Shown here piece after piece: positions 541-20,855 of a stretch of 20,855 nucleotides of DNA. The translations under genes and the position numbers were made by a program. Source of the DNA: a virus. Under the pieces are notes generated by a model. It was given only the letters and a program-made list of their open reading frames with translations. It was not told where the DNA came from and did not search any database. Position 1 is the stretch's first letter, and each line of letters starts with the position of its first letter. The stretch is taken from positions 1 to 20,855 of IMG/VR virus record IMGVR_UViG_3300033388_003545; one strand, written 5' to 3'.

Positions 541-966
541 TTAAGAAAAATTACGATTAATATTCATTATTGATAATTCTCCTGCCTTTACGATTAAAAT
601 TTTTCCTTGATAATTATCCCAATCTACCTGATAATCTTTATAGTTAATATTTCCAGGACCACTTCCAGTTTCTTTTTCAATTAATTTATTTAATGCGTTT
701 ATTGTATAAAAACATTCACCCTTTTTATGAACGATTATTGTGGTTGGGAAAAAGGAACTTGTATTAACCCTTTTACCATCTCTAACATATACCCTAAAAG
801 TTATAATCTTCTTTTCTGGGTCCTCATCTATATCATATATAAAAATCCTTTCGTTTGGTACTTTAAATCTTTTATATAGGTATTTTTTAAAACTATCTAT
901 TTTATCGTTTAAAACAAACGAAGCTAATGTAATTATTTTAGTAGTATTTTCCATATTTAACAACAT
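541..966 (-). CDS. Hypothetical protein (141 aa)
   Basis: ATG at 966; an alternative in-frame ATG at 954 (MENTTK) is equally possible and neither has a Shine-Dalgarno sequence. The protein begins with a short hydrophobic stretch (IITLASFVL), then a charged region with IFIYDIDEDPEKK, and ends in a beta-rich region (KILIVKAGELSIMNINRNF). I see no catalytic motif or transmembrane helix and do not recognise the family. The upstream 172-aa gene probably once overlapped this start by 29 nt (ATG at 966, inferred old stop at 938). A 68-bp duplication moved that stop upstream, so any translational coupling may now be lost. The stop lies about 30 nt before the start of the next gene, with a promoter-like element in between. 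Confidence 0.7.
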   Translation of the reverse strand: MLLNMENTTKIITLASFVLNDKIDSFKKYLYKRFKVPNERIFIYDIDEDPEKKIITFRVYVRDGKRVNTSSFFPTTIIVHKKGECFYTINALNKLIEKETGSGPGNINYKDYQVDWDNYQGKILIVKAGELSIMNINRNFS

Positions 967-1031
967 AAGGAACTAGTTTATACTTATTATCTAGTTTTTT
1001 TATAAATTCCTTACATTTATTAAATATTTCA
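938..1031 (-). pseudogene. Stranded 3' end of the 172-aa gene
   Basis: If the 68-bp duplication next to it is collapsed to one copy, the frame of the upstream gene continues after ...VLID into 31 more codons (starting NEIFNKCKEF) and stops at TAA 938-940. This gives a 200-aa protein whose end overlaps the start of the 141-aa gene. In the present sequence these codons are untranslated. The continuous open frame after collapsing is directly visible; that it is the ancestral coding end is inferred. Confidence 0.6.
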
Positions 1032-1167
1032 TTATCGATTAAAACACTATTTCTTAGATTAACTACTCTTGTTATAATACTATTAGTTTTTATACCAATT
1101 TATCGATTAAAACACTATTTCTTAGATTAACTACTCTTGTTATAATACTATTAGTTTTTATACCAAT
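1032..1167. repeat. Perfect 68-bp tandem duplication
   Basis: Copies at 1032-1099 and 1100-1167 are identical at all 68 positions and directly abut. The copy nearer the gene start (1100-1167) is coding; the other now lies mostly after the stop codon. Because 68 is not a multiple of three, the duplication shifts the frame and truncates the gene. Perfect identity suggests a very recent event, or an assembly artefact. Confidence 0.95.
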
Positions 1168-1608
1168 AAACTCTGTAATTTCTAAATTTACTCCAAAAAT
1201 TATATTTTCCCCTAAAATATACAACATATTTTTATCAGTAAAATATGAAATAGATTCGTTTAATGAATAGATTTTTTTTAATATTTTTTTAATTTTTTGT
1301 GGTTTATCATGGATTGGATCTATATAAACATATGATAATTCACTACCAAAATTATCATAACATACCCTTTTGAATATTATTATATCATCATCATAATCCA
1401 CTCTTCTTTCGGTTGGTAAAAATGTCCAATATAAATTATCACTGATTTTTTTATTTAAAATGGATATCTTATCTCCAAATATTTCTTTAGTTTTACCCCA
1501 ACCAACAATAAGTGTAGGTAAAGAATTATCCACCGATTCAATTTCATCAAATAACTTAAAATTATCTTCATTAATTTTAGAAGATGATACTATATTTCCA
1601 ATATTCAT
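1090..1608 (-). CDS. Hypothetical protein (172 aa), C-terminus altered by duplication
   Basis: ATG at 1608, 23 nt after the stop of the GH19-like gene. The protein contains LPTLIVGWGKTKEIFGD (about residues 30-46), a LYWTFLPTERR stretch and an acidic DYDDDIIIF segment, followed by a Lys-rich helix (KPQKIKKILKKIYS). No enzyme motif is recognised. Its last three residues (KLV) come from the junction of the 68-bp duplication; the inferred ancestral protein had about 200 residues. The sequence just before the start contains minus-strand TATATTTG (1613-1620), which fits the Bacteroidota -7 pattern TAnnTTTG, but it lies only 4 nt from the ATG, so its role is doubtful. Confidence 0.7.
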   Translation of the reverse strand: MNIGNIVSSSKINEDNFKLFDEIESVDNSLPTLIVGWGKTKEIFGDKISILNKKISDNLYWTFLPTERRVDYDDDIIIFKRVCYDNFGSELSYVYIDPIHDKPQKIKKILKKIYSLNESISYFTDKNMLYILGENIIFGVNLEITEFIGIKTNSIITRVVNLRNSVLIDKLV

Positions 1609-1631
1609 ATCGCAAATATAATATATTTTTT

Positions 1632-2315
1632 TTAAAAATTCAATTGTTTATCACCTGGGATAGTTCCCTCTACATTTATACCTAATAAGTCATATGTGTT
1701 TAAAACTCTATAAAATGCATCAAATGATAGTTTCATCTTTTCACTTGAACTATTATTTAGTAAATTAACAATCAAACTAAAATTATTAGAGCTACCACCA
1801 TTAGATAATTTATACGCAGTATCAGTTGAATTACTTTCAGAGATCGGTAACCCAATATATTTCCATTTTATGATAGACACCTTTATTAGTAATTCCAAAT
1901 TCCAAGTAACATTATCTGGGTCAGAAAGAATATCTATAGGTAATATATCGTTAGCTATGGAATATTGTCTTTTACCAATAATTGGTATGAATCCTCGTCC
2001 TCTATACATATACGCTTCATCTACTTCACCTGGGGTGTTACCGTAATCATTAGTGGGTTTTTTATAATAACTTTTTTGTACTGTATTTGGATCTGATTTT
2101 ACATTCCAAGTCTCTTCTTTTAATTGGAAATTATTAGATATTGCTAACATATTTGCTAATAACATTGTAACTTGTGATTTAGATATTATTTTTTCCCTTT
2201 GAAATTCTGTAGTTAGATATGTAGATAATTGATTAAGGTCTAAATTTATCTGGTTTTCATATTCCGTATTGGGGTCAACCCCCATACTAATTAATTTATC
2301 TCTAGTTATTTCCAT
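1632..2315 (-). CDS. GH19 lysozyme/chitinase-like protein, probably catalytically dead
   Basis: A 227-aa protein that resembles the lysozyme-fold GH19 chitinase/endolysin family. Residues 51-70 (LLANMLAIS..FQLKEETWN) align with the family's helix that normally carries the catalytic HES/HET. Here that site reads A-I-S (58-60), so the general-acid Glu is replaced by Ile. Residues 104-118 (YRGRGFIPIIGKRQY) match the YxGRGPIQLTGxxNY motif, with the conserved Gln replaced by Pro. Residues 171-178 (SNGGSSNN) resemble the INGGxNG segment. The start overlaps the end of the 1547-aa hub-like gene by 14 nt, a place where T4-like phages often keep a hub lysozyme. I infer a lysozyme-derived structural or glycan-binding part of the baseplate tip. 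A distant alignment could be misleading, but several family motifs occur in the right order. Confidence 0.65.
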   Translation of the reverse strand: MEITRDKLISMGVDPNTEYENQINLDLNQLSTYLTTEFQREKIISKSQVTMLLANMLAISNNFQLKEETWNVKSDPNTVQKSYYKKPTNDYGNTPGEVDEAYMYRGRGFIPIIGKRQYSIANDILPIDILSDPDNVTWNLELLIKVSIIKWKYIGLPISESNSTDTAYKLSNGGSSNNFSLIVNLLNNSSSEKMKLSFDAFYRVLNTYDLLGINVEGTIPGDKQLNF

Positions 2316-5300
2316 TATTTGGGGGTATTTGTGTTGTTATATCTGGGAGCTCCCCACTAGTTACATCCTGCCTATCTCCAAAAAATTGTTCATCTGGATT
2401 ATCATTAGGGTCAATACCTATAGTATAAGGATCATATGTTTTATTACTTAATTTATCTATATTTGGTTCCGATATTTCATCAGTTTCATCTAAACCAATA
2501 CCTAAAAAAGTAGTAACTTCTTCTACTGGTTTTGATATTATTTTACTTTGTCTTAACCCAGTAAATGTTGTTGTCATATGATTTGGTGTTATATTATGAG
2601 TAACGCTTAATATCATATACGCCCCATGAAAAAATGGAACATTATCTAGCTGGAAATACATCATTGGTTGTATATTCATACACCCTAATGATTCCACAAC
2701 ACACGTATAAGATCTAGTCCTAAACATTCTATATAAATCAGTTCCTTGATATGTTCTCTGAGTTCCACCCTTTTTATCTATCAAATCACTTAACGCAGCA
2801 AAATATTCTGCAGTTTCTCTATGTTCTTGTTGGTTTAATGCGACACTCTTAAAAAATGTTTGGTTTTCTGCACCATAAGCTACCCGAAAAGCCACTAAAT
2901 TAAATTGTTTATTATTACTATCTGTTTTATTACCTGTAAAATCTACTGTAGGGTTATCGAATAAAGAAAAACTATCATTTTTATATGAATATCTACTTTT
3001 TTCATCTAGGTCTAATACTTCTGACGATCCACCCACATAAACACACAAATAAGTTGGACCACTACTAGAGTTTCTATCGGAAATATTAGTAATCGGTTTA
3101 AACATATCCCTGACCTCATCTGGGTCTTTAAAATTGATATAACTAGGTATTATTTGTAATAAAAAATTACTATCTCTTAATATTTTTGAAATGTAAAAAT
3201 AAACACTAGTATTTAAATTTTCTGATAATGTAGCAACACTATTTAAATTTATTACTGCATCATCTCCAATATCATTAAATGCTCTATCAATAAACCTAAA
3301 ATAATCTATAAGTGGGATAGTATTATTGGTACAAGCATTAAAACATAACTTATCTTTTTCTGTTCCTGCAATCCATTTATCATAAACATTTTTAAAATAA
3401 TTATATACACTTAATTTAATAGTTTCTAATTGTTTATCATTATTTTCTGCATCTATTTTTGTTTTTTTATCTTGCTCAATTTCACTGGATTGAAATTTTT
3501 CTCTAAACCTATTATAATAAGCATCAAACCCTTCTACTGATAAGCCACTATTTAATCCATTAGATTCAAGTATGTCAGGGGCAGCAACAATAAAATCTGA
3601 ATAAAAAGATAGGTGTTTAACTAAATTCCTAGCCGACATATCTTTTTCATCTGTTGTTTGTTCCACATTAGTATATTTCACAAACAAATCTTCTAATTTT
3701 TCAGAATTGCTTTCTGCATATTTTATAAAATAATCTATTAATGTTTCTTTTGTTTTATCTGGTAAATTAATTAACTTATCACTAATAATAGTGCCTGAGT
3801 CATATAACTTTAGACTTGGATCACCAATATCATACAAATATTGATTTAATGGTATTGGGGGGGTTATTTCTGTGTTATTCCATACTATTGGGTCAGTTGT
3901 TTGTGTTGCTCTCCATAATGTTCCACATACCCATAATAAATAATGTTCAGGAATTCTTATTACTCTCGCACCAACTGTACCATCAAATATTTTTAGAACT
4001 GTATCTTCGAATGGTTGAAATGGTAATGTATTTAATAGTAATAAAACTTTTGACGGTGCATTAGTTTGTTGTGCAACATATAAATCAGTATCCGTTAATA
4101 ATAATGGTTGTTGTGTGGGTTGTGATGATTGCGATGTATTACTTCTTCTAAAAATATTAATATAATTAGTTTTTGTTGACGCACCTACACTATTGGTTTC
4201 ATCTTGTGATAACCCACCATCTATTATTGAAATATCATCAAAGGAAAAAGTAGATTCATTAGTAGTTATTTCTTTTTTAAATTTTGAATTTATATCTTCA
4301 CCCCATACACCGTAACTTATATTTTGTAATTTTATATGATTTTTCCACGTCGAGTTGATTGGAAGTCCTGTTTGAAACCCTCTGGTGTAATCAGTAGGTT
4401 TTGTGTCTTGGATAAAGATTCTTTTATATGAACTTGTTGATGTTACTTCTGTGAATAGATTTAATCCTTTGTTATACATATCTCTTTCATCTAAAAAAAT
4501 ATATTCAATATCATTATTTCTATACCCACCTACCATAATATCACCAATTTCTGGATCCGTACCCTCATTTATTTTATTATCTATTAAAAATCCATCTTGT
4601 TCTGCTTGACTCTTTAACTTAGTAGCACTGGTTTCATCAAAATAAACTGTTAACATTTTTCTAATTGTCGGCTCATCAATAAATTTATTTGCAAATGTCC
4701 CATCAAATTCACCAAATGCGGATAAATCCGTATCCACCATTTTACTATAATTCTTTGATATAGCAAATCTGGTTAAAATTACCTTACGTATCTCTTCTTT
4801 TATTCCTTCCTCTCCCTCATCTAATATCACATTAGAATTAAATTTAAAAAATGGGTTCTCTTCGAAATCTATAGGGTTAATAGGTACCCATGTATTGGTA
4901 TCACTACCTGTTAATGCTGTATTTAAGGTAGTTCTCCTATTAGCATCTAATGCCGCACTTTTTTCTACAATTCCTGATGTTACATTATTAATATATGTTA
5001 TTTCAGGAAAACTTTGTTCAGTTATTCCTTTTTCTTTTAATTCTTCACTTCCTATATATTTCTCTATTAATTCTCCAGATTCTTCTACTAATATTTTAGG
5101 GAAGGGATATATGGTTGAACTTCTAAAATCACTTTGATATTCCGTATCAATATCTGTTTCTATATTATAAGCGTTTGTTAATTCAACACCCCTAGATTTA
5201 CTTAATGATGTATTAACTTTTGATGCAATATCATATGTTGATTGTAACAACGCTTGAGTATTATTACATATAATTTCGAAAACTGTTCTCACAGTTGGGT

Positions 5301-19341: not shown

Positions 19342-19349
19342 TATAAATA
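19342..19349 (-). promoter_or_regulatory. Late-promoter-like element upstream of the 781-aa gene
   Basis: Minus-strand TATTTATA in the context CAGGTATTTATAAAAAAACG, 15 nt before the proposed GTG start. Its spacing is one reason to prefer GTG 19326 over ATG 19362. Promoter role inferred. Confidence 0.5.
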
Positions 19350-19402
19350 CCTGAAAATACATAAAAATTGGATTTTATATATTCTATATGTGTTTTATTT
19401 AA

Positions 19403-19410
19403 TATAAATA
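19403..19410 (-). promoter_or_regulatory. Second late-promoter-like element between endonuclease terminator and 781-aa gene
   Basis: Minus-strand TATTTATA in the context GATATATTTATATTAAATA, 76 nt before the proposed start at 19326 and 34 nt after the endonuclease terminator stem. It may be a second start site, or the original promoter left by insertion of the endonuclease module. Role inferred. Confidence 0.35.
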
Positions 19411-19444: not shown

Positions 19445-19480
19445 AATCCTCTTTATATATTATTATACATAAAGAGGATT
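19445..19480 (-). terminator. Intrinsic terminator after the homing endonuclease gene
   Basis: A perfect 12-bp stem (AATCCTCTTTAT at 19445-19456 with its complement at 19469-19480) around a 12-nt loop. In the minus-strand transcript the stem ends GGATTTTTC, giving a short U tract. It lies 29 nt after the endonuclease stop. It closes off the endonuclease module before the next promoter-like element. Confidence 0.8.
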
Positions 19481-19509: not shown

Positions 19510-20382
19510 TTATATAAATTTTTTAAGTTCCCCTATAACCCATTCGGTTCTATTGTTAATATCTGATTCCCAAAACCGAAGTAATGTTATCCCATTACTA
19601 CCTTCACAAATTTTATTTTTTTTATCGTCATTTTTAATCGTTGTTTTTTGTGTTTCATAAATTGGTCCGTTTGGGTACTTAATAGGGTTACAATGGTAAA
19701 AATCACCATCTACTTCTATCACCAGATCATATTTAGGTAAATAATAGTCAAAATTAAAACCACAAATAGTATACTGAAATATAAAATCCACCCCAATAGA
19801 TTCCAATAAATCACCAAAACGTGATTCTAATATTGTTTTATTATTATATTGATAATCCTTTAAATATTTAGCCCTTTTTTTACGTTGTTTCTCCCTATTC
19901 TCTTCCTTACCCCAGTATTCCCTCATACCTTGGTCGAATTTATCTAAGACATATTGTGGTCTTTTTCTACCCTTAAGGGATTGGGATATTTTTTTATTTC
20001 TTTCTAAGTTTGAACTTATCTTATCTCCATAATCTAACCTTTCATCATCTTCTTTGGTTAATCCCTTATTCCATATAACTAACTCACCAGATCCGTACAA
20101 TCTTCTTTGTGTTTCCTTGGATTTTCTTTGTGATTTAGAATTATGTCCCCAATTATTGTTAATTCTAGAGGCGTGGCCACGAATAAAATCTCTAAAACCC
20201 TTTTTAATTCCTAAAAACGTTGGTGTTTCACCACAACCACATTTACATGTTGGAGATATACCTTCTAAATTATGTTTAATAAAAGTTTCTTGTGGTTTGA
20301 TATCGTGTTTTTTGACATTATGAGATGATAACCCCCATAGCGAATCAAATTCCTTTTGACAAATTTCACATTTAAATTGCAT
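19510..20382 (-). CDS. Homing endonuclease, zinc fingers plus Vsr-like nuclease (290 aa)
   Basis: A free-standing site-specific endonuclease that spreads its own gene. Residues 5-26 are a classic C2H2 finger (C5-x2-C8-x12-H21-x4-H26). Next is a CKCGCGETPTFLG..GH element, a Cys-rich module seen ahead of phage homing nucleases. About residues 100-140 contain WNKGLTKEDD and ISQSLKGRKRP, a NUMOD3-like DNA-binding repeat. The C-terminal nuclease has ESRF, FDYYLPKYDLVIEVDGDFYH and LLRFWE: the E, D, ExD-G and H residues of the EDxHD/Vsr-like PD-(D/E)xK group. All key residues appear intact, so it may be active. It separates tail tube and 781-aa genes and has a terminator on each side. The ATG directly follows a T6 tract; AAGGGA, 6 nt upstream, could be a ribosome-binding site, unusual for this genome. 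Confidence 0.9.
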   Translation of the reverse strand: MQFKCEICQKEFDSLWGLSSHNVKKHDIKPQETFIKHNLEGISPTCKCGCGETPTFLGIKKGFRDFIRGHASRINNNWGHNSKSQRKSKETQRRLYGSGELVIWNKGLTKEDDERLDYGDKISSNLERNKKISQSLKGRKRPQYVLDKFDQGMREYWGKEENREKQRKKRAKYLKDYQYNNKTILESRFGDLLESIGVDFIFQYTICGFNFDYYLPKYDLVIEVDGDFYHCNPIKYPNGPIYETQKTTIKNDDKKNKICEGSNGITLLRFWESDINNRTEWVIGELKKFI

Positions 20383-20388
20383 AAAAAA

Positions 20389-20422
20389 TCCCTTTTACAT
20401 ATAAATATACACGTAAAAGGGA
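20389..20422 (-). terminator. Intrinsic terminator after tail tube gene, overlapping endonuclease start signals
   Basis: A perfect 10-bp stem (TCCCTTTTAC at 20389-20398 with its complement at 20413-20422) and a 14-nt loop. In the minus-strand transcript it is followed by exactly six U, then directly by the endonuclease ATG. It would end tail tube transcripts 25 nt after their stop. Its 3' arm contains AAAAGGGA, the only plausible ribosome-binding site of the endonuclease, so read-through RNA would hide that site. Confidence 0.8.
20400..20407 (-). promoter_or_regulatory. Late-promoter-like element inside the terminator loop
   Basis: Minus-strand TATTTATA in the context GTGTATATTTATATGTAAAA, 17 nt before the endonuclease ATG at 20382. 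It occupies the loop of the upstream terminator. A transcript starting a few bases downstream would lack the 5' arm and so leave the ribosome-binding site free. This is inferred from position. Confidence 0.5.
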
Positions 20423-20447
20423 AAGTCTTATATTTGATGAAGGAATC

Positions 20448-20855
20448 TCAAAAAACGTTTATAGCTCTATCAAATCTAAAAGTGATATCGATAGTTGCTA
20501 AATCATTTTCTGTGTATCCTAGAGAACCAAAATCTGCATCGTTAATCTGTGTTCCTTGTAAAATCCATTTTTGTACCACAACACCAGTTGGGTCTAACAT
20601 TTCTAATTCTACATCTTTTTTATACCCTGCGGCGTATCCTTGTCGTCCCGTAACTGATTCAGAATGTAATCTAATCCACTCCATAAGTGCTTGTGTCGCT
20701 GAAGGACCAATTGGATCTCTAAATCCTACTGTTATAGGTTCCCATTTAAATCTACCGATAACATAAGTTTCAGTATTTAAAAACGGTATTGCTACTTCTT
20801 CGCTTGAATATTTTGGTCGTGAACCTGTCGAAACCCACCATTCTTGTATTCCCAA
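20448..20855 (-). CDS. T4 gp19-like tail tube protein, 5' end beyond window
   Basis: The frame is open at the window edge; its first codon there is TTG and most likely internal. About 136 residues are visible, ending TGA at 20448-20450. The sequence WWVSTGSRPKYSSEEVAIPF then TETYVIGRFKWEPITVGFRD, RQGYAAGYKKDVELEMLDP and a final IDITFRFDRAINVF match the gp19-type tail tube family, which forms the inner tube of contractile tails from stacked hexamers. In particular the pattern of a strand with WEPITVxFRD, an MEW-type helix and a QKWxLxG strand is typical. T4 gp19 has 163 residues, so a modest N-terminal part is missing. Sheath and portal genes would be expected nearby, outside the window. The gene ends just before an intrinsic terminator, consistent with high, separate expression. 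Confidence 0.85.
   Translation of the reverse strand: MGIQEWWVSTGSRPKYSSEEVAIPFLNTETYVIGRFKWEPITVGFRDPIGPSATQALMEWIRLHSESVTGRQGYAAGYKKDVELEMLDPTGVVVQKWILQGTQINDADFGSLGYTENDLATIDITFRFDRAINVF

Follow-up and report, generated by a model that had tools for sequence, protein, structure and literature searches.

The window analysed here, a 20,855-nt stretch of viral DNA, carries on its minus strand the 3' part of a gp19 tail tube gene followed by a free-standing endonuclease gene, with a short hairpin between them (Table 1). The minus strand from 20422 to 20380 reads TCCCTTTTAC GTGTATATTTATAT GTAAAAGGGA TTTTTT ATG, so that the endonuclease ATG at 20382 directly adjoins a run of six U residues in the RNA. 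Judging from relatives of the window, the host probably belongs to Bacteroidota-type bacteria.

Table 1. Features at the gp19-endonuclease junction and downstream of the endonuclease gene
Feature	Coordinates	Strand	Basis
gp19 tail tube gene, 3' part, stop at 20450-20448	20448..20855	-	Pfam Phage_T4_gp19, E=0.001; phrog_4542, E=9e-24
Conserved block GATTCCTTCATCAAATATAAGACTT from gp19 stop to hairpin (25 nt)	20423..20447	-	Core found in the 16-bp direct repeat around the L008 insert
Hairpin	20389..20422	-	10 uninterrupted Watson-Crick pairs, 15 bp once G-U pairs are counted; loop of 4 nt; ribosome-binding region of read-through RNA lies inside
Late-promoter-like element ATATTTAT in apical part of hairpin	20401..20408	-	Directional enrichment 5' of genes
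Predicted RNA 5' end region if the element is a promoter	20393..20399	-	Spacing by analogy with -12..-5 elements; accessibility calculation
U6 run, terminator-like, directly 3' of stem	20383..20388	-	Letters read
Free-standing homing endonuclease, 290 aa, zinc-finger-like N terminus and I-Bth0305I/Vsr-type nuclease domain	19510..20382	-	Profiles, structure model
Second terminator-like hairpin, 3' of endonuclease	19445..19480	-	Matches L104/L105 hairpin directly behind gp19 in place and shape
Two ATATTTAT-type elements 5' of next gene, 19410-19403 and 19349-19342	19342..19410	-	Sequence

The endonuclease matched two profiles clearly (phrog_3339 homing endonuclease, E=9e-12; phrog_9084, E=4e-8) and DUF559 and Vsr weakly, while a phmmer search against PDB sequences returned nothing beyond one weak zinc-finger match. 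An AlphaFold model was built from 17 relatives (mean pLDDT 74, about 90 in the C-terminal domain). Foldseek matched this model to the I-Bth0305I catalytic domain (3r3p; E=2.5e-4, TM 0.75 by target length) and to the Vsr structure 1cw0, a Vsr-like catalytic fold of the EDxHD, I-Bth0305I-like class. From these two matches, the predicted fold identifies the enzyme as an I-Bth0305I/EDxHD-like nuclease with a zinc-finger-like N terminus. I-Bth0305I itself is an intron-encoded enzyme. Its catalytic domain resembles the one predicted here, but the window enzyme is free-standing behind gp19 and has a zinc-finger-like N terminus.

Rereading the sequence confirmed the positions and letters that the first-pass annotation had given for the hairpin, the U6 run and the ATG, and folding supported the hairpin: the window leader reached -21.7 kcal/mol, compared to -6.8 +/- 2.6 for shuffled sequences (z = -5.8), with none of 200 shuffles as low. 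Within it, TATTTATA occupies 20407-20400 and AAAAGGGA occupies 20396-20389 on the minus strand, and in folding the AUG can pair in part with an upstream AUAUAAG. The stem followed by a U run has the form of an intrinsic terminator, with only four G-C pairs, and, as in T-even-type leaders, RNA started upstream would form a stable hairpin that pairs the ribosome-binding region. A sigma-70 and terminator scan of the window gave counts not above those in shuffles, and a nucleotide search of the leader against cultured phages found no match.

We next compared the leader with those of relatives. A scan of viral contigs found 140 endonuclease relatives, of which the best 80 loci were kept; with two added gp19 scans, the distinct leaders that run from gp19 to the endonuclease ATG numbered 41. 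Among loci L001-L048, gp19 was the upstream gene wherever this could be read, with L041 and L042 as exceptions. When each leader was folded, which also catches bulged stems, a strong hairpin was found just 5' of the ATG in 41 of 41, with energies from -16.5 to -27.4 (mean -20.9). Leaders of ordinary genes in the same phages averaged about -5 to -9, and the value of -16.5 was reached by 3/111, 1/31, 1/166 and 6/166 genes in the control sets. The leaders share ancestry, so these counts are not fully independent. Runs of at least five T were present in 37 of the 41 leaders, compared to 13/111, 1/31, 1/166 and 3/166 control genes. L039 and L048 have no U run, yet retain both the hairpin and the promoter-like element. 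Given this enrichment and these two leaders, termination of incoming RNA is likely to be an added layer rather than a core or essential function.

Phages with and without the endonuclease allowed us to locate the boundaries of the insert. L119 (empty) and L008 (filled) are about 90% identical and align across gp19; the alignment resumes downstream of an insert of about 955 bp in L008, which has the hairpin at its start and is flanked by a 16-bp direct repeat with a TTATCAAATATAAG core. The native terminator, AAGCCTTCC...GGAGGGCTTTTTTT, is located 3' of the endonuclease in L008. Similarly, L275 (empty) is 99.7-99.9% identical to L021 and L035 (filled) away from the site, and about 97.6% identical in the adjoining gp19, and the insert of about 1.0 kb in the latter two includes the hairpin and the gene, again with the native terminator downstream. 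The unit is thus present or absent at one site in near-identical phages, the pattern of a free-standing cassette, and by these two sets of filled and empty sites the hairpin is part of the mobile endonuclease cassette. We accordingly rejected the hairpin as gp19's own terminator, which persists 3' of the insert in both comparisons, and with it the earlier proposal that the lock had been fused with the terminator of the tail tube gene. In the window, the hairpin at 19480-19445 is probably the original gp19 terminator pushed downstream by the insertion, given its likeness to L104/L105 and the parallels in L008 and L035, and the two elements beyond it are likely promoters of the next gene. The ATCAAA motif of the conserved block marks both filled sites and scars.

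Could the hairpin nevertheless be merely an intrinsic terminator of gp19 RNA, with TATTTAT in its loop by chance in AT-rich DNA? The stem and U6 run are a good terminator match, and the U run recurs in most leaders, but we consider this explanation unlikely. A native gp19 terminator is already present downstream of the insert, and the hairpin and element also occur in L039 and L048, where the U run is missing. TATTTAT is strongly biased in orientation, with 21 sense occurrences in the hairpins of the 41 leaders and 2 of the reverse complement. Finally, at empty sites the terminator and ATATTTAT lie apart, with the element just 5' of the next gene, whereas at endonuclease sites the two coincide at the start of the gene.

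Several further arrangements were seen at this locus. L275 carries at 764-2485 (minus strand) a different, possibly Vsr-like nuclease of 573 aa, placed in the opposite orientation between the sheath and tube genes, and is otherwise nearly identical to L021 and L035, which bear the gp19 endonuclease instead. Some phages (L129, L135, L137 and L149) have lost the gene but retained the hairpin. In the leaders of L003, L020, L102, L103, L149 and L178 the hairpin stays while TATTTAT is gone from the loop; their flank resembles the L104 native terminator, which suggests recombination, and L003 has an intact endonuclease gene, L149 a decayed one. In the L012-L019 group, the next gene begins a few nucleotides past the endonuclease stop; as no terminator or promoter lies between the two, this downstream gene may depend on the hairpin promoter.

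The stems themselves differ widely in sequence. Among the 41 leaders we found 23 different 8-bp stem cores, with every position changed on both sides; examples of core arm pairs are TCCCTTTT/AAAAGGGA, GTCCTCCT/AGGAGGAT, TCCTTTAC/GTAAAGGA and CCTCCTGC/GTAGGAGG. Because a MAFFT alignment of all stems misplaced the arms, we extracted the stem of every leader and counted the pairs there. Swapped arms were 53% complementary and own arms fully paired, the latter partly through the choice of the best stem, which inflates own-arm pairing but not the energy contrast with other genes. With this many cores changed on both sides, the comparison indicates that it is the pairing, rather than the letters of the stem, that is conserved. 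This bears on a second explanation, in which the endonuclease binds the palindrome in DNA, as an operator or target, and so represses itself, with RNA folding secondary. The site is palindromic, and I-TevI has been described as binding an operator that overlaps its own late promoter (PMC2988022); a bound sequence is hard to reconcile with stem letters that change completely among relatives while pairing is kept, and we regard this explanation as improbable in the form stated. Operator binding and an RNA lock are compatible, and one does not exclude the other.

We then examined the element in the loop, which the first-pass annotation had described as recurrent. As a word, TATTTATA is not enriched across the window (9 found, 9.5 expected), but where it stands is informative. 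It lies 10-19 nt before the ATG in four window genes, and ATATTTAT exceeded its reverse complement at 4-40 nt from the ATG in four phage records (22 v 9, 12 v 2, 8 v 2 and 6 v 0), although the genes so preceded are not all known late genes. In Flavobacterium phage immuto (NC_055915), ATATTTAT occurs 31 times on the coding strand and 4 times on the other, and TATTTAT-type sequences stand 5' of the terminase, portal (gp20), sheath, tube, baseplate hub and tape measure genes. The element also precedes genes for the major head protein (phage record G002) and baseplate wedge (phage record G001). It is followed by an A-rich stretch and has no -35 box; the absence of -35 conservation is common to T4 late promoters. 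The T4 late consensus TATAAATA was not found in the sense strand of the window leader, which has ATATTTAT, and among the leaders it occurs only in L028 and L033, in the loop. A reading in which the element acts from the opposite strand, as a T4-type TATAAATA promoter sending antisense RNA into gp19, is very hard to credit: TATTTATA, once reverse-complemented, does give the T4 late consensus (PMC3014915), but the sense orientation is strongly preferred before genes in the four records and immuto, and by 21 to 2 in the leaders.

Not all leaders share this element. Six of the 41 (L003, L020, L044, L045, L047 and L336) have the hairpin with no recognizable element. Twelve further leaders contain TATATTTG, mostly with an upstream TTGACTT whose TTG is spaced 19-20 nt from the box. 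The Bacteroidota -33/-7 promoter consensus is TTTG/TANNTTTG (PMC6847099), and the resemblance of TTGACTT/TATATTTG to it suggests that this group may use a host-type promoter at the equivalent place. In L025, L028, L033, L280, L310, L313 and L328, which have TTGACTT and TATATTTG, the -7-like box lies in the 5' arm of the hairpin. As for a late sigma factor, one match to the T4 gp55 late sigma family was found in G001 (L192; G001:7120-7479, minus strand; E=5e-6), a single and modest match. The phrog_12791 late-sigma profile gave no match, and neither did its control. A literature search found no published promoter motif for immuto or RM378. We also noted a weak gp55-like match in immuto at 78186, and TATTTATAATAAA-like sequences 5' of many immuto structural genes.

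Next, we calculated how the hairpin would affect access to the start of the gene. In partition-function calculations, AAAAGGG was unpaired with a probability of 0.001 when RNA read through from upstream, and of 0.62-0.78 when RNA started at 20399-20394. Across 33 leaders, the zone 5-15 nt before the AUG had a computed unpaired probability of 0.06 in read-through RNA and 0.58 in loop-started RNA. The hairpin had been thought to hide a ribosome-binding site; the start zone is indeed paired in computed read-through RNA, but AAAAGGGA is doubtful as a Shine-Dalgarno site. Such motifs precede only 3-6% of the genes of G001, G006 and immuto, about equal to reversed-string controls. With Shine-Dalgarno sites so little used in this lineage, AAAAGGGA probably does not serve as an ordinary ribosome-binding site and may matter little, and a lock that closes the whole start region fits better than one that hides a Shine-Dalgarno site. 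Such sparse use agrees with expectation for Bacteroidota, whose translation is known to be tuned by structure around the start (PMC6847099). In G002, Shine-Dalgarno-like motifs were found at 52% of genes, with 46% in the reversed-string control, and AGGAGG lies in the stem; GGAGG lies in the stem in both G002 and the L012 group.

Together, these data make it likely, in our judgment, that the hairpin serves as a control element at the 5' end of a mobile endonuclease cassette inserted 3' of the tail tube gene, in which the hairpin locks the start and a promoter in the loop unlocks it. RNA entering from gp19 would fold the leader into the hairpin and close the endonuclease start to ribosomes, and the U run would probably terminate part of this incoming RNA. 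The candidate late-type viral promoter ATATTTAT would start RNA in the loop, downstream of the 5' arm, and the resulting short RNA, lacking that arm and so unable to form the hairpin, would be translated. With read-through RNA locked and loop-started RNA open, we infer that the endonuclease is made mainly while the loop promoter is active, probably late. The I-TevI-like logic that had been suggested for this site, a hairpin that hides the start and bears a promoter-like element in its loop, is strongly backed by the comparison of leaders. With the hairpin in all 41 distinct relatives compared and stem letters that change yet still match, this T4-type silencing trick seems to be common and to move together with the gene.

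The principle of a start-hiding hairpin with an internal late promoter is already known from T4 and Aeh1. For I-TevI, I-TevII, I-TevIII, segB and Aeh1 mobE, Edgell, Gibb and Belfort (PMC2988022) describe a hairpin that hides the ribosome site together with a late promoter; in the case of T4 I-TevI, I-TevII and I-TevIII, the promoter lies within the hairpin and yields RNA without the 5' arm. T4 genes e and soc are likewise late genes with inhibitory leader structures, and gene e has its late promoters situated in the 5' strand of that structure (PMC3014915). When we folded the T4 I-TevII leader, CCTCGTATAAATATGAATACGAGG, its geometry was as in the leaders of the window family. Some features differ, however. 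The genes of the three T4 enzymes lie in introns and have TATAAATA-type promoters and a genuine Shine-Dalgarno site, whereas the window gene is free-standing and of another nuclease family, with a ATATTTAT element, a U run 3' of the stem and little use of Shine-Dalgarno sites. Aeh1 mobE and T4 segB are closer, each a free-standing endonuclease with a start-hiding hairpin and a late promoter (here a candidate promoter), but the insertion sites, nuclease families and phages differ, and the portions of PMC2988022 drawn on here mention neither a terminator-like U run nor wide compensatory conservation for them. Genes e and soc are ordinary phage genes, in contrast to the mobile cassette seen here. 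What is new is the phage lineage, together with the promoter word, the family of nuclease and the overlap with a terminator-like U run, along with the placement of the control element inside the insert and the conservation by compensatory change over many phages.

These observations would extend the few T4 cases to a general rule, testable in many phages, namely that mobile endonucleases carry their own lock, which blocks read-through expression and is opened by an internal promoter. They also offer a natural system for translation control by RNA structure only, where Shine-Dalgarno pairing is unused, and put forward ATATTTATAATAAA as a candidate motif for late promoters in a large group of uncultured phages.

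Other endonucleases show the same arrangement. In G002 (152 kb; L089-L096), the ATATTTAT sites with the strongest hairpins precede HNH- or Vsr-type endonucleases at 134709, 93040, 84977 and 96379, and a member of the window endonuclease family at 139581 also has a strong hairpin at ATATTTAT. In this phage, endonuclease genes had stronger hairpins than the other ATATTTAT genes did (p=0.0035, terminase left out), and in G001 two endonucleases ranked 1 and 2 by hairpin strength among 23 ATATTTAT genes (p=0.004). On a wider proposal we are almost evenly divided, leaning slightly towards doubt: that far-T4 phages of Bacteroidota-type hosts may possess a module of about 40 nt, combining terminator, translation lock and promoter, in mobile endonuclease cassettes; that it could have arisen or been borrowed repeatedly by unrelated families and would close the start region without reliance on Shine-Dalgarno sites; and that one sister group may have replaced the phage late element with a host-type promoter (TTG-N19-20-TATATTTG).

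Individual leaders in these two records vary in detail. The hairpins of the G002 HNH- and Vsr-type leaders, with ATATTTAT inside, cover GGAGG-like sites in unrelated nuclease families within one phage, and two GIY-YIG-type genes of G002 have the element with weak hairpins. In the second endonuclease gene of G001, the 3' arm contains the ATG itself. Near gp19 there is also a second homing endonuclease, of 526 aa (L085:6080-7657; L200 about 3103; L202 about 3098), with a ATATTTAT-bearing hairpin whose 3' arm takes in the start codon. Lastly, the terminase large subunit of G002 (L094:13834-17934; 1367 aa) contains a long insert with a LAGLIDADG match, probably an intein, and no other hairpin in the record is as strong as that of its leader, whose loop holds ATATTTAT.
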